Of a DNA stretch of 64,000 nt, positions 4,315 to 59,900 are shown in pieces (position 1 is the first letter of the stretch; the number at the start of each line of letters is the position of its first letter). Source of the DNA: Mya arenaria (lineage: Eukaryota > Mollusca > Bivalvia > Myida > Myidae); contig NC_069133.1 of the NCBI RefSeq assembly GCF_026914265.1, positions 28,675,772 through 28,739,771 on the forward strand, in the 5' to 3' direction. The translations under genes were made by a program, and so were the position numbers. The notes beneath the pieces were generated by a model. It searched no databases, was not told the origin of the DNA, and saw only the letters and a list, made by a program, of their open reading frames with translations.

Positions 4315-4368
<54 letters not shown>

Positions 4369-5575: not shown

Positions 5576-6300
5576 CTACATTGGCAGTCGTGTTCGCAAA
5601 ATAGGCTGTGGACAACATCAATAACAAAGATATGTATTTTTTGCTCACTCCTTTGTATTAAAATTTGTTCAAAGTAAATATTATCTATAATGCATTTTAA
5701 ATTGTGGAGAAATGTCGGATCAATTTTGTTATTTTAAATAGAAAATAAAAAAAAACAGCCACAATTGAAATATTCTTCTTCATGAGCTTATCATTTTTTG
5801 TCTAAAATTTATGGACATAATTCTTTATTATTAAATCAATATTTTTTATTTATTTTTTAAAATGTTCTTTGAATTAACAAATCTGAATTATTTTTTAAGA
5901 AAAACACGAAAACTGAAAATGGCATTTTCTGATGGTTTTTTAAATCTTATAGTGAAAATGCTAAAAGGCACCAGCATTCTTTCCCAAGATTTTCTTAACC
6001 AAACCCAGGTATCAGAAAATGTTTATTTCATATTCGTGTATATTCCTATATACTACCTTAATTTAAAAAGTTGAACAATTATGAGGCTTCATATGTATAA
6101 TTTTGCACGTGGCTTATAATAGACTGGTAGGAAAGACTCATAAGTTGAGAAGTGAAAAACCATTTACAGCAATGTGATGTATTAGTGTAGTGAACATATT
6201 TTAAATTAATTTTAAACAATATTCGTTAAATATAAGCACGTTAATTAATATATTTGATATTTTCTTCTTTAATTATGATATTTATTTGAATCATGTATAA
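5576..6300. other. AT-rich spacer between repeat clusters
   Basis: AT-rich sequence with only short AT-rich open frames. Nothing recognisable was found between the microsatellite and the minisatellite. Confidence 0.6.
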
Positions 6301-6302
6301 GA

Positions 6303-7690: not shown

Positions 7691-10094
7691 AAAAAATAAA
7701 AAACAAAACGGAAATAGGTATCTGCGGTACAAGTTACCATTTCCTACCTGCTTTTTAATAGACAAAGTGAGTATGTGGCCACACAATTGCTTCATTACCT
7801 AATGATGCATGTTTGAAGGTGAACTCGTTAGAGTTTTCAAGCCTGACTGGTGGTTTAAGTACATGATGTTGATTGCAGACATCCCTTCGATACTGATCGG
7901 ACTATGCGGCTGATTCACCCGATACCTGCTTCAGTATATCTTTTCGTGTATCTTGATCATAAGTTTGGCGTTATGCCCATAAAATACCAGTTTGGCCCCG
8001 TAGAAATAATCCGAGAGGCCCAGTACTACTCCTCGCTAGGACCTCTACAGTAGAGAACCCGCCTTGGAGGGCTCTTAAGGGTGCTGGCAGAGTAATGGTG
8101 TGTAACTTCTCCTTTGTCAAGTGTTTAACCTGACCTAAGCCAGTCACAAGTCTGGTTGAAAAAACAGGGAGTGACCACTTTCATAGGAAAACAGTTCTTT
8201 ATAAAACAAGAACTGTGTTAATTAATTATTAAGTCTAATGAGTGGAGGGTATAGCAGTTATTAATAAATATCCCAATCTGCCCTAAAACATTAACCTTAA
8301 TTCCAAAGTCAATCAAGGGCAATAATGTGTATATAAAGGATAATATGGATTTATCAAACCTCATAACGTCACGGCCCTGAACAACTGTGTGAAGTACTAA
8401 GTAAAGTGAATGAAGGGTATTGAAGTAATAAGTGAAAATCTCAACTTGCCCTAAAACTTGAACCGGACGCCGACGCTGGGGCGAGTAGTAAAGACTTCCT
8501 TATTCCTCGAATAGTCTAGCTGAAAACTATTCTCATATTTATTTCCTTTAAAATTTTGTCATTTTAGCTCTTGTATTTTTTGCTTCTGATTGTGTTTCAT
8601 GAATCAAATTTCTTTTACAAATGTATGTTGTTATGTTTCTATTGATTATGCATGTTTGTACTTTGTCATCTGTTGCCTTCTTTAAATAAATCTGAAACTG
8701 GCATTAGTTGTACATATATATGAGAAATTACCAATGTTATCCAACAACCGAGTGAAAAAGATTTTTAACACCATGAAAACGTTTGTCTTTTTAAATGGGA
8801 GTGATCACTTCACTTAAGCGAGAAAAGCAAAACATAAACGAAAGATATCGGTGTTCCTATTGCATTATAATTTTAAATTCTCAGTGCTTGTGTCTGATTT
8901 ATTCATAAATTCAATTGATGTCAGATGTATTTTAAAACAAATTACAAGCTGTGGCCTCAATTTACTAAGTTATGGCCATTATATAAATAAAGTATACGGA
9001 TGTCACCTCTGTTCCACCGTAAGAAACACATTTTGGATTATTATAAAAGTTTGAGCGTACAGGGAACAAAAAGATTATATAAGATAACACGAGATGATAC
9101 ATTCACTTTTTTTGGATGCTGCTTATGCAAAAACACACTTTGTGACTCTATGGCGAAGAATTAAATGAATGATTTACAAAGTGACAAAAGTATCCTTCCA
9201 AGAAAGAATTGAATGTGCACAGGAGAACAGAATCAGAGGTCATGCAGTAGTATTTGACCAGTTATGCAGTTGGTATAAATATTTATATGAATAACTACAG
9301 AAACAAATCCAGGTACGGAAAATAAGGGTTTTTCATTATTTAGGAACTTCCTTTTACCATTTTCTATATAGCATGATGGTGATATATTTTCGTAGCTATG
9401 ACGAATTTTATGAAAGAATTATCAAAAAGTAGAAAAAATAGGAGACCTTAAAAGTGGGAAGGAAGTGGAAAAAGAAGGAAATGTAGGATCGCTGGAAAGC
9501 ACACTATTTAGTCTAATTCCATTAACTCGTTATTTTATTTCAAACTCATTCACAACTTAACACTATATCAGTTTTATTCCAAAAAGTGATTTATCAACTA
9601 CAAACAGTTTCCAGGCATGTAATGAAAGTTCAAAAGGCACACATCAACAATATTGCAAAATGCGAGTAGCAAACACGTAAAAAAAAGTAACAGAATCTGC
9701 TGGTTCACATTTCATAGGTCATTCCAAAAACATTTTTGATTTGAAAGGCAAACATAATGCTTGCAACAATTATGAAGTATCATCAAAAGTAAAATTAGAG
9801 CTCTTTTGTGTCAGCTATGAAAATTAATAATTTAAATAAAATATTACAGACGACATTTTGCTGTAAAGCATGAGTTACGCTAAAATTAACACAATTCTTT
9901 TTACATGAGTGTCTGCATGTTGATGGCAAGTGATCGATAAAAAGTATGAATATGAGTAAATTAAAATAAATGAACAGATTTTAAAACAAATTCTTAAAGT
10001 GTCCCTTAAAAATGAACAGTTGTAATCATTATCAATAAGAACATATCTTTTGTGAACTAAAAATGTTTGAATTCCGTACAGTTGTAGGCCTACA
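7691..10094. other. Intergenic or intronic sequence, nothing recognised
   Basis: Read on both strands. About 7990-8170 has a locally higher GC content (agaggcccagtactactcct) and may be an old dispersed repeat, but it has no convincing open exon. The rest is AT-rich with short frames only. Confidence 0.5.
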
Positions 10095-20652: not shown

Positions 20653-22462
20653 TCACTTCACAAGTCTTGGTAGCAAATTTGTGAGGGCAGCACAAATAAT
20701 TAAGATTGAGTCAGCGTGTCTTATCAGAGATATAGGCATGGTGTTTTTCAAGATTTGAAATCGTTTAACTCGTTAAATTGGCCGCTCAACATGAATTCTA
20801 GACTATAAAGTATCCTAGCACATTCTACTTCTTGCTGTGAAAACTGTGTTTTTCCTCTAGCAAATGGCGGTATTGCCAAAGTTGCTCCATGAGCAGCCAG
20901 TTCATCTGAAATAAGGAACCCTCTGTCTGCAAGAACCAGGTCACCTACTTCAAGCTTTTCATAGAATTGTGAGTAAGCTGTTATCTCTTTGTCAGAGATT
21001 CTGCCACCCCAGCACTTAGAAATAAAAGACACAGCTCCATAAGGGGTTATACCAATTAAAAACTTTAAAGTATTATGGTGTTTGTAATTTGACCATGATT
21101 TTGCTCTTGGATCCAGATTTAACTTAAGTCTCATGGCAAGATTTGGTAAACATTGACTAAGAATTCTGGACACTTGTGTCGGGCAGGTATGAAACCTCAT
21201 TGCTAAGTTAATATTAATGAGGTTAAGCCTTAATTTCATTAGAACGCTCAAGATCATGTCACCTCGACATAGCTTTCCGGTTGGTTTAATTAGCCCAGAC
21301 ATTAAAGTCAGCAGCCACAAGAACACTGCCACCGACGGCAGACCAGTCAATGATGTTATTGCATTGTTACTTAGATTCTTGTAAGTAAACTTTTCACTTT
21401 CCATCTTGTCTTTCAAGTCTCTGTTTTCACATAGCAGGCGTTGATACTCTATCTTCAAGGAGGAGTAGTCTGCCTTTAGTTGATCAAACTCTCTTTGTAG
21501 TGGATAAGGGCCTGGATATGTGCCTACAACAGTTGGGAGCAATAACATTTGAACAAAATTTGAGCTGCTATTGTTATGTAATTGGCAAATGTTCGCAAAT
21601 AAAAAGTATCAAATATTCATGCTTCTCGAACATCATCATGTCAACAAACACTGACCAGTTTATTACATCACTAAGCCTTAATATAAAAACCATTAGTGTC
21701 TATTATAGGTTTAACTCCATATACAAATAGATAAGTTGATAATAGAAAAAATATCTTTGTCACATGGATGTGGAAGGTCTTGCCCTAACATCAGGAGTGT
21801 TTCTGCAATATCGGTTGTCTCACTGTGCGGGGGTGGGGGGGGCAATTTTCCTTTTCAAGTGGAGTCAACACAAGTCTGCCCTTATGCAAACGCTTATACC
21901 TCTCCACACGTGCTGGAGTCTGTTGGGGATGTTGAGGAGACGTAAAACTGAAAACACTTGGTGAGTAATCCGGATGGCATGGGTCTTTTGATGGGTTGCC
22001 TGAAATATGCATGAAGCACTCTTTAAAGTTGTTGTACTATTCTGCCTAAGTATTGCAATCACACTTCTGACACGAAAAATTCATAAACCGATTATTAACA
22101 ACAGCTCAACTTTACACAGTATACATTATTTTTTTTAACAAATGAACTACATTCAATTTATTCGTTCATTGATGTTGTGAACATAACTTAGTATTCATCT
22201 TAATGGATTATTATTTGAATAAAATATAACAAAATTCAATAATCAAAAATGATATAAAAATACCAGAGATGAAATGCTGACTGCATAACCGATCATGCTG
22301 GGAAGGCTCCCACAATTTCAGGTAGTTCATAAAGTCACGTCGCCGCAGAGATTTCTGCCATTTCAACCCCCTATCTTTATCTTTAGGGAATCTAAAGAAA
22401 TGAATTCATGAGTTCTTAGTAAAGCGTTGCGTGCATCCATGGTCGCAACAACTCGTCGGCAT
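20653..22462 (-). pseudogene. THAP + DDE (PIF/Harbinger, ISL2EU-like) transposase, broken
   Basis: Minus strand. The start at 22462-22460 opens a THAP zinc-finger exon: CCDHGC, then FFRFPKDKDRG, W, and LCSQHF, with correct C2CH spacing. It is interrupted by a TGA at 22408-22406 after TKNS. The exon ends at 22264 (G/GTATTT) and rejoins in phase at 21999 (tttcag/GC) to NPSKDPCHPDYSPSVF. The next exon (about 21520-20653) holds a coiled coil, SLTGLPSVAVFLWLLTL, then KSWSNYKHHNTLKFLIGITP, SKCWGGRISDKEIT and VLADRGF, a DDE_Tnp_4-type core. The segment that should carry the first catalytic Asp is missing between RLKLNL and DPRAKSWS. RIHVER, which supplies the last catalytic acid, lies in another frame near 20785 and is followed by a stop. 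The C-terminus can be followed to a TGA at 20655-20653. A decayed mobile-element gene. Confidence 0.85.
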
Positions 22463-28790: not shown

Positions 28791-31700
28791 CGTGGCGCAC
28801 TTCCGGTCGGAATGGGCGGGTCGTCCTTCACCACTGCAAACGAAAAAGGGGTGTTCATACATAAATATGCTGCGAGTGTGTCAAAACATAAATGCAATTT
28901 CAGTAAGATTTGATTTTGGACTTGTTTAATGTTACACTTTCATTTATATGTGTGTATAATGAAGATGAATGACAGTTGGTGACTTACTCATGGCCCCGCC
29001 CCTGCTTGCAATGATCCCGGGGGCCGGGGGAGGCTGCTGCGGCTGCTGTGGCTGGCTGCCTCCTACCAGAAACGGGGACCCTGAAACCAACGAATTAATC
29101 GAAGAAATAAATCATGGTCATGACACCCTAAATCAGGTTCACGTGAAACAACAGCCTTAAATCGAATCCATGGATAGGATGCACTGATACCACCACGACG
29201 GCCAACCTAGAATATAAATTTAACAATTTTAATCGAACAAATGGATGGATATATATTCATTTCATAAAAGAATTATTATTTGGAATAAAAGTGTTGAATG
29301 CATTATCGTCAATGTTGAGAGAGTAGTTTAAACTACTTATTAAATCAATTAAGCATGTTATGAGAAGAATTCACGTTAACAACAGCAAATAAAAAATTCA
29401 CGTTAACAACAGCCTCTATTGAAATATCGATATTCATTAAAAGAACTAAAATAAATTTTACAAACAATTCGTTTAATGAATGAAATGAGTAATATCAACA
29501 TATTAACACATGTTTGAGTTCTGAAATATTACTAATTACTAAGAAATGTATACAAAACAAAGACTCACGGCGCAAACAGCGTTGCATCGTTCTACAAAAT
29601 CCTGTCGATTCGACATTTTGGCCAAGGATTCCATCGTTATATTACAAGTAAATCCAAAATATTTCACACTTGTAGAAGCAGAAAATAGTATAGTCTTTTA
29701 TAGGCTAAGAAATATTTACCCATCTTTTCTCTCAAAATAGTTATTTAGAAATAACTGTCACTTTCTTGCTTGTTTACATCGGTTTTGAACCGTTGTGACA
29801 CATGTGAGAACCCCGTTGAAGACACATGATTCCTCACCCTGGATACAGAGTCCTTGGATATAATGCGCTAAAAATGAATCTTCGGATATATCGCCCTTAT
29901 TATCGATTGCCGGGACTTAGCACATTGCAACAGAATCTTGAATATAACGCTGGTATACGCAATCACTGGATGGAATGTCGTGAAACAGACACCTGGTATA
30001 TAACGCCTTAATACAGAATACTGGAATGTGTGTGTGTACATTCGGAACTCCTCGGCAATTTTGATCGAAAACAACCTCTTATGTATATGGACGGTTTACA
30101 ATGACAGAAATCTGGTCATTTTAAGTCCGCTGCAAGTAGATCGCGTAGTAATTTAACATTACAGTTAAACTTGATGACTTACCTCTTTGGAATCATATAT
30201 ATGTTTGCAATAATACACTTCACCGGTAATCAATTTAAACTTAGATAAACAAATACAAGCTAAAACACTAATTTTGATAAATATAATATTTTTTACGAAC
30301 TACTTCAACTGATGTACCGGCAAACATCCGAGGTTGTTTTCGATAAAAATGGCCGAGGAGCTCCGAATGCTGGAATGTAATGCATTGAAACAGACTCCTT
30401 GTATATGAGACCATAAACAGAATCCTTAGATATAACGTCTTAATACAGAATCCTGGGATAGACCGTCCTAATACAGAATCCTGGGATAGACGGTCCTAAT
30501 ACTGAATCCTGGCATGTAACGTTTTAATACAGAATCCTGGGATAGACCGTCATAATACTGAATCCTGGCATGTAACGCCCTAGTACAGAATCCTGGGTAG
30601 ACCGTCCTAATACTGAATCCTGGCATGTAACGTCTTAATACAGAGTCCTGGATAGACCGTCCTAATACTGAATCCTGGCATGTAACGTCTTAATACAAAG
30701 TCCTGGGATAGACCGTCCTAATACTGAATCCTGGCATGTAACGTTTTAATACAGAATCCTGGGATAGACCGTCCTAATACTGAATCTTGGCATGTAACGT
30801 CCTAATACAGAATCCTGGGTAGACCGTCCTAATACTGAATCCTGGCATGTAACGTCTTAATACAGAGTCCTGGTTAGACGGTCCTCATACTGAATCCTGG
30901 CATGTAATGTCTTAATACAGAATCCTGGATAGACCGTCCTCATACTGAATCCTGGCATGTAACGACTTAATACAGAGTCCTGGGTAGACCGTCCTCATAC
31001 TGAATCCTGGCATGTAACGTCCTAATACAGAATCCTGGGTAGAACGTCCTAATATTGAATCCTGGCATGTAACGTCTTAATACAGAATCCTGGGTAGATC
31101 GTCCTAATACTGAATCCTGGTATGTAACATTTAATACAGAATCCTGGGTAGACCGTCCTAATACTGAATCCTGGCATGTAACATTTTAATACAGAATCCT
31201 GGTTAGACCGTCCTAATTCTGAATCCTGGCATGTAACATTTAAAGTCCTAATACTGAATACTGGCATGTAACGTTTTAATACAGAATACTGGGCAGACCG
31301 TCCTAATACTGAATCCTGCGATAGACCGTCCTAATACAGAATCCTGTGTAGACCGTCCTAATACAAAATCCTGGGATAGACCGTCCTAATACAGAATCCT
31401 GGACAGACCGTCCTAATACAGAATCCTGGTATATACCGTCCTAATACAGAATCCTGGGTAGACCGTCCTTATACAGAATCCTGGACAGACAGTCCTAATA
31501 CAGAATCCTGGGATAGACCGTCCTAATACAGAATCCTGGGTAGACCGTCCTAATACTAAATTCTGGCATGTAACGTCTTAATTTTGATACCTGGGCAGAC
31601 CGTCCTTATACTGAGTCCTGCGATCTAACGTTTTAATACAGAATCCTGGGTAGACCGTCCTAATACTGAATCCTGGGATGTAACGTTTTAATACAGAATC

Positions 31701-34700
31701 CTGGGTAGACCGTCCTAATACTGAATCCTGGGATAGACCGTCCTAATACTGAATCAAGGGTAGACCGTCCTAATACTGAATCCTGGCATGTAACGTCTTA
31801 ATACAGATTCCTGGGTAGACCGTCCTCATACTGAATCCTGGGATAGACCGTCTTAATAATGAATCCTGGCATGTAACGTTTTAATACAGAATCCTGGGTA
31901 GACCGTCCAAATACTGAATCCTGGGATAGACCGTCCTAATACTGAATCAAGGGTAGACCGTCCTAATACTGAATCCTGGCATGTAACGTCTTAATACAGA
32001 TTCCTGGGTAGACCGTCCTCATACTGAATCCTGGCATGTAACGTCTTAATACAGAATCCTGGTCAGACCGTCCTAATACTGAATCCTGGCATGTAACGTC
32101 TTAATACAGAATCCTGGGTAGATCGTCCTTATACTGAATCCTGGCACGTAACGTTTTAATACAGAATCCTGGGTAGACCGTCCTAATACTGAATCCTGGC
32201 ATGTAACGTTTTAATACAGAATCCTGGGATTTAATGTCTTAATACAGAATCCTGGGCAGACCATCTTAATACAGAGTCCTGGGTAGACCGTCCTCATACT
32301 GAATCCTGGCATGTAACGTCCTAATACAGAATCCTGGGTAGGCCGTCCTAATACTGAATCCTGGCATGTAACGTTTTAATACAGAATCCTGGGTAGACCG
32401 TCCTAATACTGAATCCTGGGATAGACAGTCTTAATAATGAATCCTGGCATGTAACGTTTTAATACAGAATCCTGGGTAGACCGTCCTAATACTGAATCCT
32501 GGGATAGACCGTCCTAATACCGCATCCTGGCATGTAAGGTTTTAATACAGAATTCTGAATGGACCGTCCTAATACTGAATCCTGATATGTAACGTCTTAA
32601 TACAGAATCCTGGGTAGACCGTCCTAATATTGAAACCTGGGATACACCGTCCTAATACTGAATCCTGGCATGTAACTTTTTTATTACAGAATCCTGGACA
32701 GACCGTGCTAATACTGAATCCTAGCATGTAACGTCTTAATACAGAGTCCTGGTTAGACGGTCCTCATACTGAATCCTGGCATGTAATGTCTTAATACAGA
32801 ATCCTGGATAGACCGTCCTCATACTGAATCCTGGCATGTAACGTCTTAATACAGAGCCTGGGTAGACCGTCCTCATACTGAATCCTGGTATGTAACGTCC
32901 TAATACAGAATCCTGGGTAGAACGTCCTAATATTGAATCTTGGCATGTAACGTTTTAATACAGAATCCTGGGTAGATCGTCCTAATACTGAATCCTGGTA
33001 TGTAACATTTAATACAGAATCCTGGGTAGACCGTCCTAATACTGAATCCTGGCATGTAACATTTTAATACAGAATCCTGGTTAGACCGTCCTAATTCTGA
33101 ATCCTGGCATGTAACATTTAAAGTCCTAATACTGAATACTGGCATGTAACGTTTTAATACAGAATACTGGGCAGACCGTCCTAATACTGAATCCTGCGAT
33201 AGACCGTCCCAATACAGAATCCTGTGTAGACCGTCCTAATACAGAATCCTGGGATAGACCGTCCTAATACAGAATCCTGGACAGACCGTCCTAATACAGA
33301 ATCCTGGTATATACCGTCCTTATACAGAATCCTGGGTAGACCGTCCTTATACAGAATCCTGGACAGACAGTCCTAATACAGAATCCTGGGATAGACCGTC
33401 CTAATACAGAATCCTGGGTAGACCGTCCTAATACTAAATTCTGGCATGTAACGTCTTAATTTTGATACCTGGGCAGACCGTCCTAATACTGAGTCCTGGG
33501 ATGTAACGTTTTAATACAGAATCCTGGGTAGACCGTCCTAATACTGAATCCTGGGATGTAACGTTTTAATACAGAATCCTGGGTAGACCGTCCTAATACT
33601 GAATCCTGGGATAGACCGTCCTAATACTGAATCAAGGGTAGACCGTCCTAATACTGAATCCTGGCATGTAACGTCTTAATACAGATTCCTGGGTAGACCG
33701 TCCTCATACTGAATCCTGGGATAGACCGTCTTAATAATGAATCCTGGCATGTAACGTTTTAATACAGAATCCTGGGTAGACCGTCCTAATACTGAATCCT
33801 GGGATAGACCGTCCTAATACTGAATCAAGGGTAGACCGTCCTAATACTGAATCCTGGCATGTAACGTCTTAATACAGATTCCTGGGTAGACCGTCCTCAT
33901 ACTGAATCCTGGCATGTAACGTCTTAATACAGAATCCTGGTCAGACCGTCCTAATACTGAATCCTGGCATGTAACGTCTTAATACAGAATCCTGGGTAGA
34001 TCGTCCTTATACTGAATCCTGGCATGTAACGTTTTAATACAGAATCCTGGGTAGACCGTCCTAATACTGAATCCTGGCATGTAACGTTTTAATACAGAAT
34101 CCTGGGATGTAATGTCTTAATACAGAATCCTGGGCAGACCATCTTAATACAGAGTCCTGGGTAGACCGTCCTAATACTGAATCCTGGCATGTAACGTCCT
34201 AATACAGAATCCTGGGTAGACCGTCCTAATACTGAATCCTGGCATGTAACGTTTTAATACAGAATCCTGGGTAGACCGTCCTAATACTGAATCCTGGGAT
34301 AGACAGTCTTAATAATGAATCCTGGCATGTAACGTTTTAATACAGAATCCTGGGTAGACCGTCCTAATACTGAATCCTGGGATAGACCGTCCTAATACCG
34401 CATCCTGGCATGTAAGGTTTTAATACAGAATTCTGAATGGACCGTCCTAATACTGAATCCTGATATGTAACGTCTTAATACAGAATCCTGGGATACACCG
34501 TCCTAATACTGAATCCTGGCATGTAACTTTTTTATTACAGAATCCTGGACAGACCGTGCTAATACTGAATCCTGATATGTAACGTCTTAATACAGAATCC
34601 TGGGATACACCGTCCTAATACTGAATCCTGGCATGTAACTTTTTTATTACAGAATCCTGGACAGGACCGTGCTAATACTGAATCCTGGCATGTAACGTTT

Positions 34701-37700
34701 TAATACAGAATCCTGGTTAGACCGTCCTCATACTGAATCCTGGCATGTAACGTCTTAGTACAGAATCCTGGGTAGACCGTCCTAATACTGAATCCTGGCA
34801 TGTAACGTCCTAATACAGAATCCTGGGTAGACCGCCCTAATACTGAATCCTGGGATAGACCGTCTTAATAATGAATCCTGGCATGTAACGTTTTAATACA
34901 GAATCCTTGGTAGACCGTCCTAATACTGAATCCTGGGATAGACCGTCCTAATACTGCATCCTGGCATGTTTTAATACAGAATTCTGAATGGACCGTCCTA
35001 ATACTGAATCCTGATATGCAACGTCTTAATACAGAATCCTGGGTAGACCGTTCTAATATTGAAACCTGGGATACACCGTCCTAATACTGAATCCTGGCAT
35101 GTAACGTTTTAATACAGAATCCTGGGTAGACCGTCCTAATACAGAATCCTGGGTAGACCGTCCTAATATTGAATCCTGGCATGTAACGTTTTAATACAGA
35201 ATCCTGGCATGTAACGTTTTAATACAGAATCCTGGGTAGACCGTCCTAATACTGAATCCTGGCATGTAACGTTTTAATACAGAGTCCTGGGTAGACCGTC
35301 CTAATACTGAATCCTGGCAAATAAAGTTTTAATACTAAATCCTGGCATGTAACGTTTTAATACAGAATCCTGGCATGTAACGTTTTAATACAGAGTCCTG
35401 GGTAGACCGTCCTAATACTGAATCCTGGCAAATAACGTGTTAATACAGAATCCTGGCAAATAACGTTTTAATACAGAATCCTGGGATAGACCGTTTTGAT
35501 ACTGAATCCTGGCAAATAACGTTTTAATACAGAATCTTGGGATATACCGTTTTAATACAGAGTCCTGGGTAGACCGTCCTAATACTGAATCCTGGCAAAT
35601 AACGTTTTAATACAGAATCCTGGCAAATAACGTTTTAATACAGAATCCTAGGATAGACCGTTTTAATAATGAATCCTGGCAAATAACGTTTTAATACTGA
35701 ATCCTGGCAAATAACGTTTTAATACTGAATCCTGGCAAATAACGTTTTAATACTAAATCCTGGCAAATAACGTTTTAATACTGAATCCTGGCATGTAACG
35801 TTTTAATACAGAATCCTGGCAAATAACGTTTTAATACAGAATCCTGGGATAGACCGTTTTAATACTGAATCCTGGGATAGACCGTTTTAATACTGAATCC
35901 TGGCATATAACGTTTTAATACTGAATCCTGGCAAATAACGTTTTAATACAGAATCCTGGGATAGACCGTTTTAATAATGAATCCTGGCATGTAACGTTTT
36001 AATACAGAATCCTGGGTAGACCGTCCTAATACTGATTCCTGGGTAGACCGTCCTAATACTGAATCCTGGCATGTAACGTTTTAATACAGAGTCCTGGGTA
36101 GACCGTCCTTATACTGAATCCTGGGATAGACCGTCCTAATACTGAATCCTGGCATGTAAACGTCCTAATACAGAATCCTGGGTAGACCGTCCTCATACTG
36201 AATCCTGGCATGTAACGTTTTAATACAGAATCCTGGGATAGCCCGTTTTAATACTGAATCCTGGCATGTAACGTTTTTAATACAGAATCTTGGGTAGACC
36301 GTCCTAATACTGAATCCTGGCATGTAACGTTTTAATACAGAGCTCTTGGTAGACCGTCCTAATACTGAATCCTGGCATGTAACGTTTTAATACAGAGCTC
36401 TTGGTAGACCGTCCTAATACTGAATCCTGGCATGTAGCGTTTTAACACAGAGTCCTTGGATATAATACCCTAAAACAGAATCATGTGACATAACGCCCTT
36501 ATACCTACACCTGGGATGTGACGCCCTACAACAGATAAAACTTACATACAGCAGCTTCCACTGAATTAATTGTTCCTGACGTCCGTTGTTTTTTTTATTG
36601 AATTGCATATTTTATAATATATGATAAATATTCGATACATATTGAATCTTTGTCAAAGATATTATACATAACAGTTTTAAACACATTTTCGCCGATTTAA
36701 GCTGTTGTAAATTCATAGTTTTACACTAACCTGGATATAAGGCGCCCATATCTTCAAACGGCCCGTCATCAAACGGCCCATCATCAAACGGCCCATCATC
36801 ATCAAACGGCCCATCATCAAACGGCCCATCATCGAAAGGCCCATCATCCATTGGGCCATCATCTTGATAATGTCAATAAAAGAAGTCAAGGCGTGTACAT
36901 AATTATATCAGTTTACCGTGTGGTTGTCTAAATATGTGAAAGCCATTTCCAAGAAGTGGGCCTGCTGATATAACGTCGGTGTTCGAAAACAAGGTTGAGG
37001 ATTAAGGCAAGTTCTGTTTCTAAAAGTCATTTAACGACGTTGAATATATCGTGTGTGTAAATTTCATTTTCCAATGCCACCGAACGTAAAAACAGCTATA
37101 TTTTTCTTACAATTCTTCATCTCTATATTTAAGAATTGATATGGTTAGTGAGATGATAATCCGTGCAGTGATACATATAGGTGAGCCGTTATTTTGAAAT
37201 ATTTATTATGTATATGTTCACTCAATATTTGCAAATGTTTTCTAAGATAAACCAACTACAACGCTGAAAATAACAGTTCCTATATAATTGTCAATTTGAA
37301 CAGCGACGTCGGCAATAACGCCTATTGTCTCATCTACGTCACATACACGTTACAACGACATGGCCCCATAACGCCACTCACAAGTTTTTCTACGATCAAA
37401 GGTTTCCCGAAGAATACTTGAATTGCAATGTGAGTGTAAATATAACATGCTGTTTCAAAAACCAAGTCGTAAAGTGTTCAATTGAAGCACAAAGCGTACC
37501 TCCTCCCATTGCCATCCACGCGGTGCCGTCTGAACGTCGGAGCATGGAGGCCATGAGATCCGACCGGGCCGCCATCAATGTCGTGATCTTCTGAATATCC
37601 CAGCCGCAGAACGGCGTCTCTGCGGAATTCAGTAGAACAAACAATAATTTGTACAGTGAGACGTTCAACTCCATTTGGGTGCCAAAATGTGATATACCCC

Positions 37701-39989: not shown

Positions 39990-40378
39990 CTGTACGAAAG
40001 AAAAAACAACAACATAAAGGCATCAATTGATATGACATATAATTATTTGCTGATATATTCTTCATTTACGGACAGTATGTATTTATTGGCTGAGTTCTTG
40101 TCTGAGCTTATCGCACATGTGGGGGTAAGGTGTTTGCCTGAGGGAACAGTTCAGAACCCAAATAGTGGTTGGATTTGATTCGTATTGCCTGTGAACAAAA
40201 TTGTAAGAAGAAGTATTTTTGAAAAATATACTCGGCCGTGGTAAACCAGCGGGGTGACATGTATCGGGACGAATGGTTTGAATGTTCGACATATGGTAGA
40301 GTTTTACAATGTTCGACTAAACACGTGTTATTTTCAATACAGAAATGTTTTCACCGCTAAAGAGTGATGAAACGTTAT

Positions 40379-40829
40379 CACGGTGGAGAACCCACGTGAC
40401 TTATTTGGTAAAGTGCACGGCGACAAATGTCAACAAGTCTCGATTAAGGTAAGGTTTTTAAAGATAACTTTCTTAATATTTGGAGAATGTTTGTGAAATA
40501 AAGACCATAAACCCCGCATTTAAGAGCTCTATCCACAGTAATAAAGAACTTTCTCTAATATTCTAAAGTTTTCCTGAAAATCTTGACCAACTGATTTCTC
40601 AGAGTTGAAATCTAAGGCAAAGTACACGGTTTTGACAAATCTATCGCTTTACTTCATGTTAGCCGTAAATAATTCATACACAAATCTTATTTTAAGCAAT
40701 TTTATGTATTTTAAAGTTTTCAGCGTGTATTGTTGAACTTCTTATAGTTATTTCAAAGGCGAAAATGAACTAAAACCAAATTAATAAAGTACACGGACAT
40801 TTTAGGTTTGATAAAGTACACGGTCATTT
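40379..40829 (+). repeat. Left terminal inverted repeat (451 bp)
   Basis: Runs from CACGGTGGAG to the phrase gataaagtacacggtcattt. Subterminal motif copies end near 40420, 40629, 40796 and 40823. A splice-donor-like AAG/GTAAGG at about 40447 suggests that a transcript could start in the repeat. Confidence 0.9.
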
Positions 40830-41336
40830 ACAACCTTCAGTGTATATACTCATTATTTCACTGACTGGTGCTAAAACGAGTTATTATAGATTTATTTATT
40901 ATTTCTATTCTTCAAATTCATTATTGAACATTGCTCCATGTTTGAAAATACGCATTGTAATGGAGTGACAATGGAAGAATGAACGCGTGTTAACAGTTAG
41001 ACCGACGGAGTCGCCTAAATGATGGGCTCATTTTCATGAATCATGGAAACATGTGTTATCACACTAAAATTCAGTCCCGTATTTTAACAATATATTCGAA
41101 ATTGACATATAAAGGGCTTGAAGTTTTTGTAAAGGGTGTTCCACTTCTCTTTCGTATCGTATATGTAAAACGTGTTTGTATTCATTGTACATGGTAAACA
41201 GTAACACATTTACTGCTTAATAACTTTTCATTTTGTCAATTTTGAGAAAGAAAAGTGTTCTTGTACTTTTAATTTCTTCGATTGCTAGCTGATTTGATAG
41301 ACTTATGATTTTGTGACATTTGTTTCATTTCAGAAT

Positions 41337-42064
41337 ATGAAGACTCCGACTTTATGCAAAGAATGCGGAATGGCATTTCAAAATAAAACAAAAAAACAAC
41401 AACACCTAGTAGACCACGATAGAAGGCATTCTGGTCAATTGCCATCGTTTTTGTGGGAAAGTGTTTACACAGACACAGGTTAGTTTTTAGCATTCTTTTT
41501 TCGCAGAGAAATAAGAATATACTAAAGTTATACTTTTATTATGACTCCCCTCGTGTAGAGGTTAAGATTTGCCGTCGTCTGACTGTGTTTCAACGTTTTT
41601 TAGGAGTTGCGTTATTCACATAATAATGTGGTCCGTGTTTCAGTGGACAGGGTCGTTTAGTTTTATGATGCTGATTACACGATCAAACACTCATTGCGTG
41701 GCAGTAATATAGTGTTTTTTATAAATTATATTCAATTACTGACATTGCCAGCATTTCTCGCTAACTTGTGACAGTACATGTCTTTTTTATAGGTGCAGCA
41801 ATCACGGCGAGACAAAGTTGCACGTTTGCAAATATTGTGCCAAAACTGCTCTTGCAAGACTTGAAAATACACGAAAGACGCGAAAGCGGCCAATTGAAGC
41901 TAACCTGTGATGTGTGTGGGTTCAAATTGGGTGACACGACCAATCTCAGTGACCAGATTTCTACTAGACATAGGGGAATGACACGTCACAAATGTCTACA
42001 GTGTCGCTCAGCATTCAAGTTCAAATCTGGACTCAGCAGGCACGTTAAGGCGAAACACACCTAA
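41337..42064 (+). CDS. C2H2 zinc-finger protein inside the TIR element (two exons)
   Basis: Exon 1 has its ATG at 41337 after an acceptor at 41331-41333 (ttcatttcag) and a donor at 41479 (ACAG/gttagt). Exon 2 is 41793-42064 after tttttatag, with a TAA stop. The join is in phase and gives about 137 residues. Finger 1, CKECGMAFQNKTKKQQHLVD then H, and the last finger, CLQCRSAFKFKSGLSRH then VKAKH, keep C2H2 spacing. The middle finger (CDVCGFKLGDTTNLSDQ) has Gln where the first His belongs. Another finger-like stretch (HVCKYCAKTALARL) lies in a different frame at the start of exon 2, so a fourth finger may have been lost by frameshift. It probably binds nucleic acid; its role in the element is unknown. 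Confidence 0.65.
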
Positions 42065-42547
42065 TCAGGACACATTGAAAGATCACAATGGTCTAGTTAG
42101 AAGTGCATTCCAGTATGTTGCCGAGTTAAAATAACGTTTTGATGAGTTTAACATTTTATTAAGATAAATAGCAAAACGTACTGTTACCAAATGGTGCTCT
42201 TTCAAAATGTTCGTTTGTCTTACAGTACTGAAAAAAATGCTGTGTAAAATTAGTATGAAAACGGATTGAGCATAAAACATTTTCACAAGGTTTAGAGATG
42301 CATTGTTGTCATTATCCCATTGATGTTCTATAAACACTTAACTGCATGTATCTTATATAATTCAGAAAGCTTTGAAACACAATTATTTTGTAATCACATT
42401 TCAGCCTTTAGTCTAGAACATTCTAATGTTCCATGCTCAGCTCTTATCTAGATGTTCAAGTCTTAGTCCTAGCCTGTAAGTTGGTATATAGTGTGCTCTC
42501 ATTCCTCCTTGCTGTTTCACATCTAACTCCGAGCCGCCATCTTTACA

Positions 42548-42649
42548 ATGAGTTCCTGTCTGTTTTGTTCGAACGACCGCAGTTTTACTGATGTAGATCA
42601 GATAATATGTGTTCAGACTGAACCAAATAAAAGATTCAGCGTTACCTGA
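42548..42649 (+). CDS. Short cysteine-containing frame, possible leader exon
   Basis: A 33-codon frame beginning MSSCLFCSNDRSFTDV follows gagccgccatctttacaATG, a context that resembles many animal 5' ends. The stop TGA at 42647 is directly followed by AAAG/GTATGA, which looks like a donor. It could be a micro-peptide, or the start of a transcript leaving the element to the right. No homologue is recognised. Confidence 0.3.
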   Translation: MSSCLFCSNDRSFTDVDQIICVQTEPNKRFSVT

Positions 42650-43123
42650 AAGGTATGAACAATATGCTTTAAATGTGGATATATGTATAAACTAATTGTG
42701 ATGTGCCTATTTTATTGTTTTATATCACATCAAAATAGGAACATTCATGAAATTTATAATCACCACAAACGGGCCGCTAACTACAGATATGTTTTATTCG
42801 CCGTCAGTCCAGATTATAATTTATAAGTAAAACTATCTGATTTTTGAAGAAATGTATGTATGATTCTGTATTGATCTGCATATTTAAAAGTAATCGAACT
42901 TATAATGGCAGACTTTCTCTTAAATTATCACATAGACTATATTTCAACACCTCATTAAATATGATTGCTAAATATTTAGTTATTTAGGTGTGCGTTATAT
43001 AATGCAAAATTTATTGATATAACTTAAATAAAAACTAAACACTATACATTCTGACTTCACGAATAGAAAATGCTTATATAACTATTAATTTGTAAACCGC
43101 ACTCTACTTTCAAACATAAACTA

Positions 43124-43572
43124 AAATGACCGTGTACTTTATCATCCTAAAATGTCCGTGTACTTTATTAATTTGGTTTTAGTTCATTTTTACCTTTGAA
43201 ATAACTAGAAGTTTTACAATACACGCTGAAAACTATAAAATGCATAAAATTTGCTTAAAATAAGATTTGTGTATGAATTATTTACGGCTAACATGAAGTA
43301 AAGCGATAGATTTGTCAAAAGCCGTGTACTTTGCCTTAGATTTCAACTCTGAGAAATCAGTTGGTCAAGATTTTCAGGAAAACTTTAGGATATTAGAGAA
43401 AGTTCTTTATTACCGTGGATAGAGCTCTTAAATGCGGGGTTTATGGTCTTTATTTCACAAAAATTCTCCAAATATTAAGAAAGTTATCTTTAAAAACCTT
43501 ACCTGAATCGAGACTTGTTGACATTTGTCGCCGTGCACTTTACCAAATAAGTCACGTGGGTTCTCCACCGTG
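43124..43572 (-). repeat. Right terminal inverted repeat (449 bp)
   Basis: Inverted copy of 40379-40829, differing by scattered substitutions and short indels such as gattaag versus gattcag and tgtttgtg versus tttttgtg. It ends ctccaccgtg, directly followed by the GTTAT duplication. Confidence 0.9.
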
Positions 43573-43577
43573 GTTAT

Positions 43578-46974: not shown

Positions 46975-49165
46975 GCTTATTCTGCTGTGTTGATGTTTCT
47001 GCTACTGTCGTTGTTGGAGCTATTTCTTGTACTGTCGCTATTAGAGCTATTCCCGTTACTGCCGCTACTAGAGCTATGTCTGCTACTGCTGGTAGTCGAG
47101 CTGCTCCTACCCGTGCCGCTACTAGAGCTATGTCTGCTACTGCTGGTCGTCTAGCTTCTCCTACCCGTGCCGCTGCTAGAACTATTTCATCTACTGCTGG
47201 TAGTCGAGCTGCTCCTACCCGTGCCGCTGCTAGAACTATTTAATATTTATGCTTCTGCTGGTAGTCGAGCTGCTCCTAGCCGCGCCGCTGCTAGAGCTAT
47301 TTATGCTTCTGCTGGTAGTCGAGCTGCTCCTACCCGTGCCGTCGAGCTGCTCCTACCCGTGCCTCTGCTAGAGCTATGTCTGCTACTGCTGGTAGTCGAG
47401 CTGCTCGTACCCGTGCCGCTGCCATAGCTATGTCTGCTACTGCTGGTAGTCGAGCTGCTCCTACCCGTGCCGCTGCTAGAGCTATTTCTGCTACTGCTGG
47501 TAGTCGAGCTGCTCGAACCCGTGCCGCTTCTAGAGCTATTTCAGCTACTGCTGGTAGTCGAGCTGCTCCTACCCGTGCCGCTACTAGAGCTATTTCTGCT
47601 ACTGCTGGTAGTCGAGCTGCTCCTACCCGTGTCGCTGCTAGAACTGATTCCGCTACTGCTAGTAGTCAAGCTGCTCGTTCCCGTGCCGCTGCTATAGCTA
47701 TGTCTGCTACTGCTGGTAGTCAAGCTGCTCGTACCCGTGCCGCTGCTAGAGCTATGTCTGCTACTGCTGGTAGTCGAGCTGCTCGTACCCGTGCGCTGCT
47801 ATACGTATGTCTGCTACTGCTGGTAGTCGAGCTGCTCGTACCCGTGCCGCTGCTATAGCTATGTCTGCTACTGCTGGTAGTCAAGCTGCTCGTACCCGTG
47901 CCGCTACTATAGCTATGTCTGCTACTGCTGGTAGTCGAGCTGCTCGTACCCGTGCCGCTGCTAGAGCTATGTCTGCTACTGCTGGTAGTCGAGCTGCTCG
48001 TTCCCGTGCCGCTGCTATAGCTATGTCTGCTACTGCTGGTAGTCGAGCTGCTCGTACCCGTGCCGCTGATAGAGCTATGTCTGCTACTGCTGGTAGTCGA
48101 GCTGCTCGTACCCGTGCCGCTGCTATAGCTATGGCTGCTACTGCTGGTAGTCGAGCTGCTCCTACCCGTGCCGCTGCTAGAGCTATGTCTGCTACTGCTG
48201 GTAGTCGAGCTGCTCCTACCCGTGCCGCTGCTATAGCTATGTCTGCTACTGCTGGTAGTCGAGCTGCTCGTACCCGTGTCGCTACTATAGCTATGTCTGC
48301 TACTGCTGGTAGTCGAGCTGCTCCTACCCGTGCCGCTGCTAGAGCTATGTCTGCTACTGCTGGTAGTCGAGCTGCTCCTACCCGTGCCGCTTCTAGAGCT
48401 ATTTCAGCTACTGCTGGTAGTCGAGCTGCTCCTACCCGTGCCGCTACTAGAGCTATTTCTGCTACTGCTAGTAGTCGAGCTGCTCCTACCCGTGTCGCTG
48501 CTAGAACTGATTCTGCTACTGCTGGTAGTCAAGCTGCTCCTAGCCGTGCCGCTGCTAGAGCTATTTAATATTTATGCTTCTGCTGGTAGTCGAGCTGCTC
48601 CTACCCGAGCCGCTGCTAGAGCTAGTTATGTTTTTGCTGGTAGTCGAGCTGCTCTTACCCTGCCGCTGCTAGAGCTATTTCTGCTACTTCTGGTAGTCGA
48701 ACTGCTCTTACCCTGCCGCTGCTAGAGCTATTTCCGCTACTGCTGGTAGTCGAGCTGCTCCTATCCGTGCCGCTGCTAGAGCTATTTCTGCTACTGCTGG
48801 TAGTCGAGCTGTTCCTACCCGTCCGCTGCTAGAGCTATTTCTGCTACTGCTGGTTGAGGAGATGTTTCTGCAACTGTCGTTGCTACAGCTATTTTGCTAC
48901 TGTTGTTTCTGCAACTGTCGTTGCAAGACCTATTTCTCCTACTGCTGCTGGTAAACTTATTTCTGCTACTGCTGCTGGTAGACCTGTTTTTGCTACTGCT
49001 GCTGGTATGCCTATTTCTGTTACTCTATTTCTGCTACTGCTGCTGGTAGACCTATTTCTGCTACTGCTGCTGGTATACCTATTTCTGCTACTCTATTTCT
49101 GCTACTGCTGCTGGTAGACCTGTTTTTTGCTACTGCCACAGCTACTGCTACTGCTACTTTTTAAA
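46975..49165. repeat. 54-bp minisatellite, Ala/Arg/Ser-type frame
   Basis: The unit tctgctactgctggtagtcg then agctgctcgtacccgtgccg and ctgctatagctatg repeats every 54 bp between about 47.07 and 48.83 kb. It passes at both ends into simpler CTGCTACTG triplet repeats. One frame reads SATAGSRAARTRAAAIAM (18 residues) and another reads LLLLVVELLVPVPLLELC. A one-base deletion near 47795 shifts the frame. Upstream, no open frame joins the acceptor-like tttttag at about 46962 to this frame, so coding is not supported. Confidence 0.85.
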
Positions 49166-52948: not shown

Positions 52949-55345
52949 TTAACACGAAATAGCTGTTGTCACTGCCTATTTGGGTCAACTTAACGCTAGT
53001 GCTTTTAAATCATGAAACGCTAAACAGCTGTTTCAACTGCCTGGTACTGTTTACTTCATGAAAGTGCTTCTAAATCATAAAGACACCGAACAGCTGCCTC
53101 CACTTCCTGGTACGGTTTGCTTCACAGTAGTGTTTCTAAATAATGAAACGCTAATCAGCTGTTTTCACTGCCTGGTTTGGTTAACTTCACAATAGTGCTT
53201 CTTAATCAGGAAACGCTAAACAGCTGTTTCCACTGCCTGGTAGGGTTAACTTCACGATAGTGCTTCTAAATCATGAAACGCTAAACAGCTGTTTCCACTG
53301 CCTGGTAGGGTTAACTTCACGATAGTGCTTCTAAATCATGAAACGCCGAACAGCTGTTTCCACTGCCTGATAGAGTTTGTTTCACGGTAGTGCTCCTAAA
53401 TCAGGAAACGCTAAACAGCTGTTTACACTGCCTGGTAGGGTTGACTTCACGATAGAGCTTCTAAATCAGGAAACGCTAAACAGCTGTTTCCACTGCCTGG
53501 TTTGGTTAACTTCACAATAGTGCTTCTAAATCAGGAAACGCTAAACAGCTGTTTCCACTGCCTGGTTGGGTTAACTTTACGATAGTGCTTCTAAATCAGG
53601 AAACGCTAAACAGCTGTTTCCACTGCCTGGTTGGGTTAACTTCACGATAGTGCTTCTAAATCAGGAAACGCTAAACAGCTGTTTCCACTGCCTGGTTTGG
53701 TTAACTTCACAATAGTGCTTCTAAATCAGGAAACGCTAAACAGCTGTTTCCACTGCCTGGTTGGGTTAACTTTACGATAGTGCTTCTAAATCAGGAAACG
53801 CTAAACAGCTGTTTCCACTGCCTGGTTGGGTTAACTTTACGATAGTGCTTCTAAATCAGGAAACGCTAAACAGCTGTTTCCACTGCCTGGTTTGGTTAAC
53901 TTCACAATAGTGCTTCTAAATCAGGAAACGCTAAACAGCTGTTTCCACTGCCTGGTTGGGTTAACTTCACGATAGTGCTTCTAAATCATGAAACGCTAAA
54001 CAGCTGTTTCCACTGCCTGGTTTGGTTAACTTCACGATAGTGCTTCTAAATCAGGAAACGCTAATCAGCTGTTTCCACTGCCTGGTTGGGTTAACTTCAC
54101 AATAGTGCTTCTAAATCAGGAAACGCTAAACAGCTGTTTCCACTGCCTGGTTGGGTTAACTTTACGATAGTGCTTCTAAATCAGGAAACGCTAAACAGCT
54201 GTTTTCACTGCCTAGCTGGGTTAACTTCACGATAGGGCTTCTAAATCAGGAAACGCTAAACAGCTGTTTCCACTGCCTGGCTGGGTTAACTTCACGATAG
54301 TGCTTCTAAATCAGGAAACGCTAAACAGCTGTTTTCACTGCCTGGTTGGGTTAACTTCACGATAGTGCTTCTAAATCAGGAAACGCTAAACAGCTGTTTT
54401 CACTGCCTGGTAGGGTTAACTTCACGATAGTGCTTCTGAATCAGGAAACGCTAAACAGCTGTTTCCACTGCCTGGTAGGGTTAACTTCACGATAATGCTT
54501 CTAAATCAGGAAACGCTAAACAGCTGTTTCCACTGCCTGCTTGGGTTAACTTTACGATAGTGCTTCTAAATCAGGAAACGCTAAACAGCTGTTTCCACTG
54601 CCTGGTAGGGTTAACTTCACGATAGTGCTTCTAAATCAGGAAACGCTAAACAGCTGTTTCCACTGCCTGCTTGGGTTAACTTTACGATAGTGCTTCTAAA
54701 TCAGGAAACGCTAAACAGCTGTTTCCACTGCCTGGTTGGGTTAACTTCACGATAGTGCTTCTAAATCAGGAAACGCTAAACAGCTGTTTCCACTGCCTGG
54801 TTGGGTTAACTTTACGATAGTGCTTCTAAATCAGGAAACGCTAAACAGCTGTTTCCACTGCCTGGTTGGGTTAACTTCACGATAGTGCTTCTAAATCAGG
54901 AAACGCTAAACAGCTGTTTCCACTGCCTGCTTGGGTTAACTTTACGATAGTGCTTCTAAATCAGGAAACGCTAAACAGCTGTTTCCACTGCCTGGTTGGG
55001 TTAACTTCACGATAGTGCTTCTAAATCAGGAAACGCTAAACAGCTGTTTCCACTGCCTGGTTGGGTTAACGTCACGGTAGTGTTTCTAAATCATGAAACG
55101 CCGAACAGCTGTTTTTACTGCCTGATAGGGTTTGCTTCAGGATTATGCTTTTAAATCATGAATCATCGGACAACTGTTTTCACTGCCTTTAGGGATAACT
55201 TACCGATTGTGCGTTTTAATAATGAAACGCAGAACGGCTGTTTCCACGGCCTGGTACTTCACGATAGTGCTTCTTAATCATGAAACGGTGTACAGTTGTT
55301 TAGTTGCAACTACCTGATAGGGTTTATTTCACGAATTGATTGTTT
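52949..55345. repeat. Satellite array C, 65-bp unit (about 36 copies)
   Basis: The unit aaacgctaaacagctgtttc then cactgcctggttgggttaac and ttcacgatagtgcttctaaa repeats every 65 bp with very high similarity in the centre and degraded edges. Variants (tttgg/cacaatag; ttggg/tttacg; ttggg/ttcacg) recur in sets of three at 53.5-53.95 kb and pairwise at 54.5-55.0 kb. Almost every unit contains the 12-bp palindrome AAACAGCTGTTT. Confidence 0.96.
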
Positions 55346-55654: not shown

Positions 55655-56045
55655 CTATTCTTTAACGTAAAAAATAGCTTTAGAGTTCATTCCCTGAGGA
55701 TATAAAGTTTTGAGTTTGTGAATCCAATAAGTCTCTTTAAATAAACGATTTATGTTATTCCTAACAATTTCAATAGGCATAAAACTAAAGTCATTTATAC
55801 TATGCGACACGCTATTAAAATGCGCAGCAACTAATGATGAAGACATAGGGTCCGTAAAATTACAAATATCAAATCTGTGACTATTCATACGTTTTGACAC
55901 GGCTTGTGTAGTTTGACCCACATATTGTTCGTTACATCTTTTGCATGTAATTAAATATATTACATCTTCTATTGCACAATTGGTTTCGCAGCAAAGTCTG
56001 TTATTGATGTTCTTTAACAATAATGATGAGAACAGAATCGGGAAT
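55655..56045 (-). pseudogene. Penelope-like element 3' fragment: GIY-YIG nuclease domain
   Basis: The minus frame, 121 codons from its first ATG and open slightly upstream, contains VIYLITCKRCNEQYVGQT, the GIY-YIG signature region (YLI...YVGQT), then SKRMNSHR, VAAHFNS and WIHKLKTLYPQGMNSK, a typical end of Penelope-type proteins. Cysteines just before the domain (CCETNC) match the zinc-binding segment of such proteins. The reverse transcriptase that should precede it is absent, so this is a 5'-truncated insertion. The ribozyme-like motif lies about 220 nt downstream on the same strand. Confidence 0.8.
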
Positions 56046-56047
56046 TG

Positions 56048-56902: not shown

Positions 56903-59900
56903 ATGAAGTGTGTGATCGCATTTTTGGCTGCTTTCATAATGGTGGCACATGGCGACGGTGAGAAAAGTTTACAATCATAGCGATACTTTGTTCAAAGCGC
57001 ATATGCATACAGTTCAAGGCTAGGGGCACCCAATATTTTTGTTTATTATCATGAATACATTTAAATACAATACGTTATTTTATTCAAATTTATTCAAATA
57101 CAATACTTTGTCTTTTTCATGTTTAAAAGGCTCCTCTTAGTTGGATTTTCCCCCCGAAAGAGTTACATAAGTATGTTTAACTTGTATATAATAATGTTAG
57201 CTGCAATTGCTTGATATGTTCTCACGCTTATTTTGTCAAGTATTGGTGAATCGATTTTGATTAAGAAAATTGGAAGCTTGGAAACGTTATTGTCAAACTG
57301 ATTTTTTTAATTAGATATAGATCTAGCTGTTGATCATTTATTTAAAGCTATTTCCACGACGGGAGTAATTTTATAAAAAACAAACAACAAAAACACATTT
57401 ACTGGTGACATCGGATTTCAGGCCGTAAGCGAGTGTGTTACTACAGCAACTGGTCCCAGTACCGACCGACAGGGGGCAAGTTCTTCCCCACGGACATCGA
57501 CGCCTCCCTATGCACCCATCTCATCTACTCCTTCGCCAAACTCAACACTTCCGGCGAAATGGATATGTATGAATGGAATGACCCCAAACAGTGAGTAACT
57601 AAACACTTCACTTACTTAGTAGACTGTTACGCTGACAGTGGCCAAATGGTTAATCGCATCGGACACTTTATCAGTGGTTCTGTGGTTCGAAATTCACTCG
57701 GAGCTTCGTCGATGATAAGTACTGGGCCCAATTTCTTGAAAATAATTAAGCGTAATAAGCTTTTATACCTAATTTCTTTGTGTCAAATCACTTACACGAA
57801 CCTAATTTCACATGATCAAAATACTCTTTAAATAAAAAGTGAGCTTAGCTTGTTCCTGTTAAAAGGCAATTATTTCAGAAATTGGGGCTAGAAAAAGTAA
57901 AGGGTTCTTAACCATATCTACATACAGATTTCAAAAATGTGTTCATACGTTCGTGGTTATGAAGCTCGACGGGTGTTGATCATTGCGACATAAAATCAAT
58001 GTTACCAGTACACGCATAATGTTGTAAATGATGGCAACCAGTTATGTGATCTGCCTCTGTGCCATGTCTCAATAACGACCGTAAGACTTAAGATCGTAAA
58101 TTTCCAGGCGTTACCTCGTTTGTTTTTTTCGCGTGAACTGAGTTTCAATAAAAAAATATTTATCGCATAGATTATGGCCGTACCGTTACGGGTGCACAAG
58201 AGCTTTTAGCAGCGTAAGGTTTACGGCTGGGCTATCTTTTGAAACTGGGACCATATTTGTAAGAGTTATAAGAATAAGAATCAAATGATATTTTATTTGT
58301 ATTTAGACATGTAGTTTAAAACTAAGTCATAGATTTGTGATTGGTTAATAACGATCGAGTTTCCATACGCTTTTACTACTGGAGTTTTCTGCCCCTAAAT
58401 GTTGTGAAACTTGGTACACTTGTTGACTTTGACCTATAACAATACGCACGTGTTACAGATGTATGACGTTTTATTGCTACATAATACATGTGTGAATAAA
58501 GTTAATTCCTTAATCGAAAGAAATGCGAAAAAACAATCGGACGTTGACATGCGCGAGCGTTTACTACATACGTTTAAGTGTAATAATTCAATCGGAATAT
58601 AATACAACCATACGATATTGAAGTAGGCTATTCTCTAACTAACAATTATAGCTACAAGGATTTCAACGACCTGAAAAAGTCTAACCCGGGGCTAAAAACG
58701 CTGCTGGCGATTGGCGGCTGGAACGCCGGAAGTACAGACTACTCCAGTCTTGTAGCGGTCCCCGCAAAGCGGCGGAACTTCGCGGTGAAGGCGGTCGAGA
58801 CTCTGGTAAGGTGGAACTTCGACGGCCTCGACCTCGACTGGGAGTACCCGGCCAGGCGAGGAGGAGCTGCAGCCGACAAGGAAAACTTCATCCTCTGGAT
58901 AAAGGTAGAAACTTGCTTACTGGGCCAACGGCTGTTTTACAGGTTAATTTGAATGTATGGTTATAAATCTATCATGTTGGAGTTGTAGAAATAACACATT
59001 TATAAAAATAATCAACATGTACAAAAGTTACCAAAAACGTTCTTCCCAAGATTTCCCTGTAATATATATCTTCTTCCAAGTGGGTTTTTGTTGCGGGGAA
59101 GGGTATGATCCTGGATCTACCGATCCGCTTGTGTTTTAAATGGACTCTCTCAAAGACTTTATGGAAAGTTTAAACTCATTGCTTTTGCTCGATTGTGATG
59201 AAAGCTAATAGCTATAGCTTATAGAATCACGCTCGAGTCTGTTTCCTAGGTAGAAACCAGTACTGCTGAAAATTGCGAGACACCTTGAGAAGGTACCTTT
59301 AGTGCGGGGATCGAACCCACAACCTCTTGGTTAATAGACAGACACCAATTGATTTCATGTTGGTGGCAATGTTTTCATAATGTGTTCGAATTGAATTATT
59401 TTATCTATTATAAGGAACAAACACCGTAATATTATATAAGTTGATAGATACTTATTTGATTCGAACTTTAAGCCGTGATTAAATCCATTTTCAATATCGT
59501 TATATACTTAGTATTTCTGGTAAGTGATGTATTTTCTGTCCCATTTTGTAATACTTAGGTGCAACCGAACGTTAATCTCAACTTCTTATGACGATTTACC
59601 ATTGTCTGAGGCAGTCTGCTTACATCATTTTTTAATAACTCATGCTATACTGGCTCGCCCGTACCAAATGTTTTTGAATTTGTTTTGTTCATGATGTGCA
59701 CGTGGATGATTCTGTTACAGGACATTCTAGTCGAATTTAACAAGCATCAGCCGCGGCTCCTGCTGACGGCGGCGGTGGCCGCGGGGAAGGAGAACATTGA
59801 TAACGCATACGACATCCCGGAAATGGCCAGGTAAGATTTCACACCCTCAAATCAAATGTATTCAACTGTTTCATGTACTGTATGTAGGTCTATCGAATGT

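Follow-up and report, generated by a model that had tools for sequence, protein, structure and literature searches.

The 64-kb stretch of the Mya arenaria genome analyzed here, referred to as the window, carries at positions 40379-43572 a 3,194-bp element with the outer ends CACGGTGGAGAACCC...GGGTTCTCCACCGTG, the outer 67 bases of which form a perfect inversion at both ends (Table 1). Its inverted arms, 451 bp on the left and 449 bp on the right, share 96.2% identity across 453 alignment columns and contain four copies each of the motif AAAGTRCACGG, which occurs nowhere else within the window. The pentanucleotide GTTAT lies directly outside both ends, where a 5-bp flank match at the same spacing arises by chance at 321 of 200,000 random window positions (0.16%). 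Between the arms reside the two exons of a C2H2 zinc-finger gene, and no transposase is found among the element's listed open frames. A sequence-only reading of this DNA had described CACGGTG ends one base off the RAG recombination heptamer CACAGTG, a GTTAT duplication, and near-identical terminal repeats of about 450 bp: the heptamer-like ends are seen on both sides of the window copy, and the description as a whole is confirmed almost to the base.

Several unrelated features share the window. A 286-aa open frame on the minus strand (20751-21608) with DDE_Tnp_4 (E 1.2e-23) and HTH_Tnp_4 matches is probably a PIF/Harbinger-type transposase fragment, a GIY-YIG open frame (55658-56047, minus strand, E 1.7e-06) may form the tail of a Penelope-like element, and a further frame (58587-58949, plus strand, E 1.8e-23) matches the chitinase-like glycosyl hydrolase family 18. 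Repetitive DNA comprises GGTGAT-rich simple repeats (4232-7647) with long accidental open frames and extreme GC skew in 2-kb steps (0.71 over 4001-6000 and 0.56 over 6001-8000), a tandem array of about 6 kb with a 28/55-bp unit (30417-36456), a 54-bp minisatellite (47060-48902; 28 copies between 47341 and 48854) across which several frames stay open on each of the two strands, and an array of 36 copies of a 65-bp unit (52957-55301).

Table 1. Coordinates of the element's features within the window
Feature	Position	Strand	Basis
Left target-site duplication, GTTAT	40374..40378	.	sequence, comparison of copies
Left inverted terminal repeat, outer end CACGGTGGAGAACCC	40379..40829	+	alignment to right arm; 15-mer end 468x genome-wide
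Subterminal motif AAAGTGCACGG, first of the left arm's four	40410..40420	+	motif scan
GTAAGG after AAG, candidate 5' splice donor within left arm	40449..40454	+	read by eye
AAAGTRCACGG, left arm, remaining starts	40619, 40786, 40813	+	motif scan
C2H2 passenger exon 1	41337..41478	+	splice sites picked by eye
A-rich tract in exon 1, length varies among copies	about 41381-41405	+	copy alignment
C2H2 passenger exon 2, including stop; first finger split over two frames	41793..42064	+	splice sites picked by eye
AATAAA, candidate polyadenylation signal of passenger gene	42626..42631	+	motif scan
Right inverted terminal repeat, four AAAGTRCACGG motifs	43124..43572	-	arm alignment, motif scan
AAAGTRCACGG, right arm, minus-strand starts	43541, 43332, 43166, 43140	-	motif scan
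Right target-site duplication, GTTAT	43573..43577	.	sequence, comparison of copies

Copies, target sites and derivatives

Used as query against the assembly (1,216,080,610 bases in 18 contigs), the left arm picked up 719 first-look candidates. Scoring 40 of these returned 41 rows, of which 40, including that of the window copy, are full-length at 96-100% over 462 bp and one is partial (query 1-172, 95%). The exact terminal 15-mer occurs at 468 places genome-wide (241 forward and 227 reverse, vs. 0 and 2 for its reversed control), with T as the base immediately outside the end at 224 of them. The exact 20-base end had no occurrences in either the viral_contigs or the genome_contigs collection, and nothing in the literature consulted on mollusk or 5-bp-duplication elements was recognized as the clam family.

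Twenty loci (L009-L028) were read as 10-kb stretches, having been taken by best-scoring arm and hence biased toward close copies. Both ends are present in 16 of them (L009-L019, L023, and L025-L028), 15 of which measure 3.14-3.20 kb while L025 is interrupted and spans 3,922 bp; the right end is missing in L020, L021, L022, and L024. The copy in L009 does not differ from that of the window. The window segment 40229-50231 recurs in inverted orientation about 154 kb away on the same contig (C12:28860713-28870712, 99.87% identity over 10 kb), reflecting either a recent segmental duplication in inverted orientation or a duplicate made in assembly; because L009 lies inside this duplicate, its GTTAT pair is not independent. 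The flanks of L011 and L012 are likewise identical, and the two thus represent one insertion.

Among 24 two-ended copies, the target-site duplication is 5 bp long in 21, 6 bp in two (L010 and L014), and absent in one (L016); this set combines 17 complete copies (14 with five bp, two with six, one with none) with seven further ones, all with five. Counting duplicated loci once leaves 22 copies with 19 five-bp duplications, two six-bp ones, and one without, and copies other than the window's bear their own, different duplications. The 19 independent 5-bp sites have a GC content of 30.5%, vs. 35.1% for the loci retrieved from L009 onward, and lean to A-T-N-A-T. Among 5000 random sets, 4 attain their nTNAn score, a count that gives no fair probability since the pattern was picked after the base counts had been seen. 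Target palindromy exceeds that of random genomic 11-mers (51 of 2000 as high) without exceeding that of half-shuffled sites (1097 of 5000 as high).

For estimates of divergence we aligned 17 copies (the window copy, L010-L020, L022, L023, and L026-L028), without L009, which is identical to the first, or L021, L024, and L025, each of them incomplete or interrupted. The aligned copies lie 0.85-3.35% off their majority consensus, with a mean pairwise distance of 2.9% (105 pairs from 15 copies, L020 and L022 dropped), and all eight AAAGTRCACGG motifs are intact in 12 of the 17, with at least one absent in L013, L020, L022, L023, and L028. It is important to note that the consensus arms themselves already differ at 7 of 448 sites and by 5 gap columns, so that arm divergence provides no clock for the window insertion. 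Judged from the copies' sequences, the family is a recently active or amplified one with many members.

Convergent terminal 15-mers were further paired by hand at the first 100 of the 468 places, yielding 28 pairs: 19 of 2.97-3.23 kb, of which L014, L015, and L018 were read and the others assumed ordinary from their size, and nine of other sizes, of which seven were read (the remaining two measure 3,678 and 3,932 bp). When 100 of the 224 T-flanked places were paired by eye, eight more pairs emerged, seven measuring 2.8-3.2 kb and one 0.8 kb. The candidates for a large autonomous copy proved to be the same element with a nested non-LTR retroelement (L029) or a nested Penelope-like one (L031, with RVT_1 and GIY-YIG matches under the curated cutoffs), a rearranged element (L030), and a family member with extra DNA (L035, 3,679 bp). 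Short derivatives of 1,135, 282, and 511 bp (L032, L033, and L034, respectively) were also found, and short or rearranged derivatives keep the family's ends and duplications. Twenty unpaired ends on C1, followed for 1.5 kb each, lead into truncated or paired arms, pieces of ordinary copies, older relatives, and segmental duplicates, and past the arms only three matches between loci, of 61-172 bp, fall outside family or duplicated DNA.

The sequence-only reading had suggested a genome-wide search with the terminal repeat, an alignment of copies for the duplication length, and a hunt for autonomous copies sharing the repeat. The first two yield the many copies and the predominant 5-bp duplication described above; the third returned no transposase-bearing partner with the same ends among those read, a minority of the 468, and neither the window nor L001-L028 and L036-L055 contain a Transib-like tblastn match.

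Older relatives of the family are also present (L032, L034, L039, L050, L052, and L056), in which the outer 15 bases are shared and the arms are about 77-90% identical to those of the window copy, with divergence from the window arm starting at about base 28 in those aligned. Next to the old copy in L056 lies an open frame (L056 2154-2423, plus strand) without a Pfam match, which we take to be tyrosine-recombinase-like from its HSFRRGG...GNWKSD...Y motif. It was rejected as a partner: the sequence to the left of the element recurs, by eye, at about L056 2719-2763, so the frame seems to be part of a flanking repeat element.

The C2H2 passenger gene

The two exons that the sequence-only reading had noted in the interior are co-located in all 17 aligned copies, but the finger frame itself is interrupted in the window copy, where CKYC lies in a different frame from the remainder. 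The same split of the first finger between frames is seen in both annotated Mya arenaria proteins that match the passenger, and the fingers score weakly, with no C2H2 profile above its own cutoff (the best, zf-H2C2_2, scores 29.2 of 40 bits). These two proteins, which are named zinc finger protein 805-like and PR domain zinc finger protein 13-like and match at 94% and 89% identity, respectively, are the only matches at E<=10 in the protein collection (7 candidates), and their genes are probably copies of the transposon passenger.

Once joined, the exons contain stops in 13 of the 17 aligned copies, with frame breaks mostly at the A-rich tract of exon 1, and are open in four (window, L017, L019, and L022). 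The pooled dN/dS, a value that includes inherited changes, is ~0.81. Exon 1 is the most divergent of all parts measured (2.52%), ahead of the 5' spacer (1.97%), the intron (1.73%), the 3' part (1.63%), exon 2 (1.47%), and the two arms (1.17 and 1.34%). The gene reads as a decaying hitchhiker under little or no selection and outside the transposition machinery. That it would instead do work for the element, for example as a repressor or an end-binding accessory protein, is very improbable and largely refuted by the frequent stops, the dN/dS value, the divergence of exon 1, and the frame-split first finger in the window copy and both annotated proteins, although the equivalent position of the exons throughout the alignment, the slightly lower divergence of exon 2 relative to the intron, the candidate splice donor within the arm, and the annotation of two copies as genes speak for such a role. 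Together, the four open frames and an exon 2 slightly less divergent than the intron and 3' part make function in a few copies possible.

Mobilization and affinities of the family

The family combines inverted ends, near-fixed duplications, copies at unrelated sites, and no transposase of its own, as do nonautonomous transposons with terminal inverted repeats, and the window element is very probably a full-length copy of such a cut-and-paste DNA transposon family, mobilized in trans and carrying the C2H2 gene as a passenger. We infer movement in trans, as the search for a transposase flanked by such ends, which covered a minority of the 468, came up empty. In the mechanism we propose, a DDE transposase made elsewhere would bind the repeated AAAGTRCACGG motifs in the long arms, which by analogy with Galileo are candidate transposase-binding sites, cut at the CAC ends, and join them across a 5-bp stagger to target DNA, with a preference for AT-rich sites; the long arms may in turn give rise to the short, foldback, and rearranged derivatives. 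Candidates for the superfamily are a Transib-type, a hAT5-type, or an unsampled CAC-ended group.

A nonautonomous Transib or RAG-like element, mobilized by a RAG1-type transposase that nicks at CAC, forms hairpins on the flanks, and leaves a 5-bp stagger, is a tentative possibility only. The CAC...GTG ends and the one-base distance between CACGGTG and CACAGTG favor it, and the ends of Helicoverpa Transib likewise start CACGGTGG, with no report of CACGGTG together with Transib found in the literature searched. Genome searches, run without a Transib positive control, returned no matches with the Transib-like protein P0070 (E<=0.01, 2 candidates), a typed Transib core (E<=1, 4 candidates), or the RAG1 profile PF12940 (1 candidate). 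The typed core itself matches PDB chain 6pqn (DNA-mediated transposase, E 4.5e-87), presumably the Helicoverpa Transib, and 1,443 Transib-like proteins were recorded among 1,746 candidates, those named among the best 120 being from insects and most being unnamed; mollusk members may rank below these 120. The RAG1 profile, which matched in none of 14 control genomes, is a weak Transib detector: P0070, a protein that matches the typed Transib consensus and weakly the RAG1 profile, scores 20.8 of 25 bits, under the cutoff. In a mollusk survey Transib accounted for 1 of 14,275 ORFs (PMC10294476), which makes a Transib partner unlikely beforehand, if still possible. The 5-bp duplications in 21 of 24 copies have the length reported for Drosophila hopper and transib2, but the AT-rich target sites (30.5% GC) sit poorly with the GC-leaning ones of Transib and RAG, as hopper and transib2 favor CCANTGG, called GC-rich for hopper (PMC3276498), and a GC target bias is stated for ProtoRAG, Transib, and RAG (PMC8289069). 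Heptamer positions 4-6 are dispensable in ProtoRAG (PMC8289069), and by hand count the element's end fits the protostome RAG-like consensus CACTWMCAAACKTYKBB at 6 of 17 positions, three of them the CAC, with GAG vs. AAA at positions 8-10 (PMC7204232). Of the sequence-only proposal of a nonautonomous RAG/Transib-type family, nonautonomy, CAC...GTG ends, 5-bp duplications, very long inverted ends, and a C2H2 passenger in many copies stand, whereas membership, for which CAC, the one-off heptamer, and the duplication length are the shared features found, is not supported.

A hAT5-type origin, that is, from the hAT elements with 5-bp duplications, appears unlikely. Repeated subterminal motifs, like those of the arms, are common in hAT elements and agree with it, but hAT ends usually start CAG and the clam element starts CAC. 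Flank hairpins are formed by hAT as well as by Transib/RAG transposases. Matches to the hAT domain PF05699 are abundant in the clam genome (943 candidates, 150 scored, at least 150 matches), which also establishes that the profile search engine works there, yet none of 68 hAT matches on C1-C6 lies within 20 kb of 155 listed ends (68 of the 943 candidates and 155 of the 468 ends; nearest 24 kb). The literature describes hAT groups that duplicate 5 or 6 bp, hAT5 being defined by the former length (PMC12730594), and the clam family shows 5 bp and occasionally 6; its lean to nTNAn, a pattern recognized post hoc, recalls the NTNNNNAN of hobo (PMC3276498). Alternatively, the CAC...GTG ends, 5(-6)-bp stagger, AT-rich ANNNT-like sites, and 450-bp arms with CACGG repeats could mark an undescribed animal superfamily whose transposase is lost or cannot be recognized as Transib/RAG or hAT, an improbable reading. 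IS481EU was rejected for its ends and duplication lengths (PMC10045372).

Whatever the superfamily, the element belongs to a recently amplified, sharply bounded transposon family, the exact end of which occurs 468 times in a single genome, and its passenger probably explains two annotated clam zinc-finger genes. The exact ends offer a handle for finding a possibly RAG-like transposase in a bivalve; the present evidence does not speak to how V(D)J recombination arose.

Among known systems, hAT5 and hAT6 resemble the clam family in duplication length, 5 and 6 bp, respectively (PMC12730594), and, post hoc, in an nTNAn-like target, and differ from it in their usual CAG start, with no partner found among the ends read. 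The RAG-like and ProtoRAG transposons of bivalves, nemerteans, and lancelets, for which nonautonomous derivatives are known (PMC7204232), share the CAC start and 5-bp duplication, whereas the clam element is without AAA at positions 8-10, fits their consensus poorly, and has no RAG1 profile match. Transib targets are CCANTGG-like (PMC3276498) and those of the clam element AT-rich. The likeness to Transib, as represented by hopper, transib2, and the Helicoverpa element, resides in the CAC...GTG ends and the 5-bp duplication. Transib ends nevertheless span tens of bases, compared with clam arms of about 450 bp with repeated motifs. Galileo, of the P superfamily, has a 7-bp duplication and other ends, in contrast to the 5 bp and CAC ends of the clam element. 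It nonetheless resembles the clam family in having long inverted ends that are internally repetitive and contain several binding sites (PMC3688188, PMC3573991).
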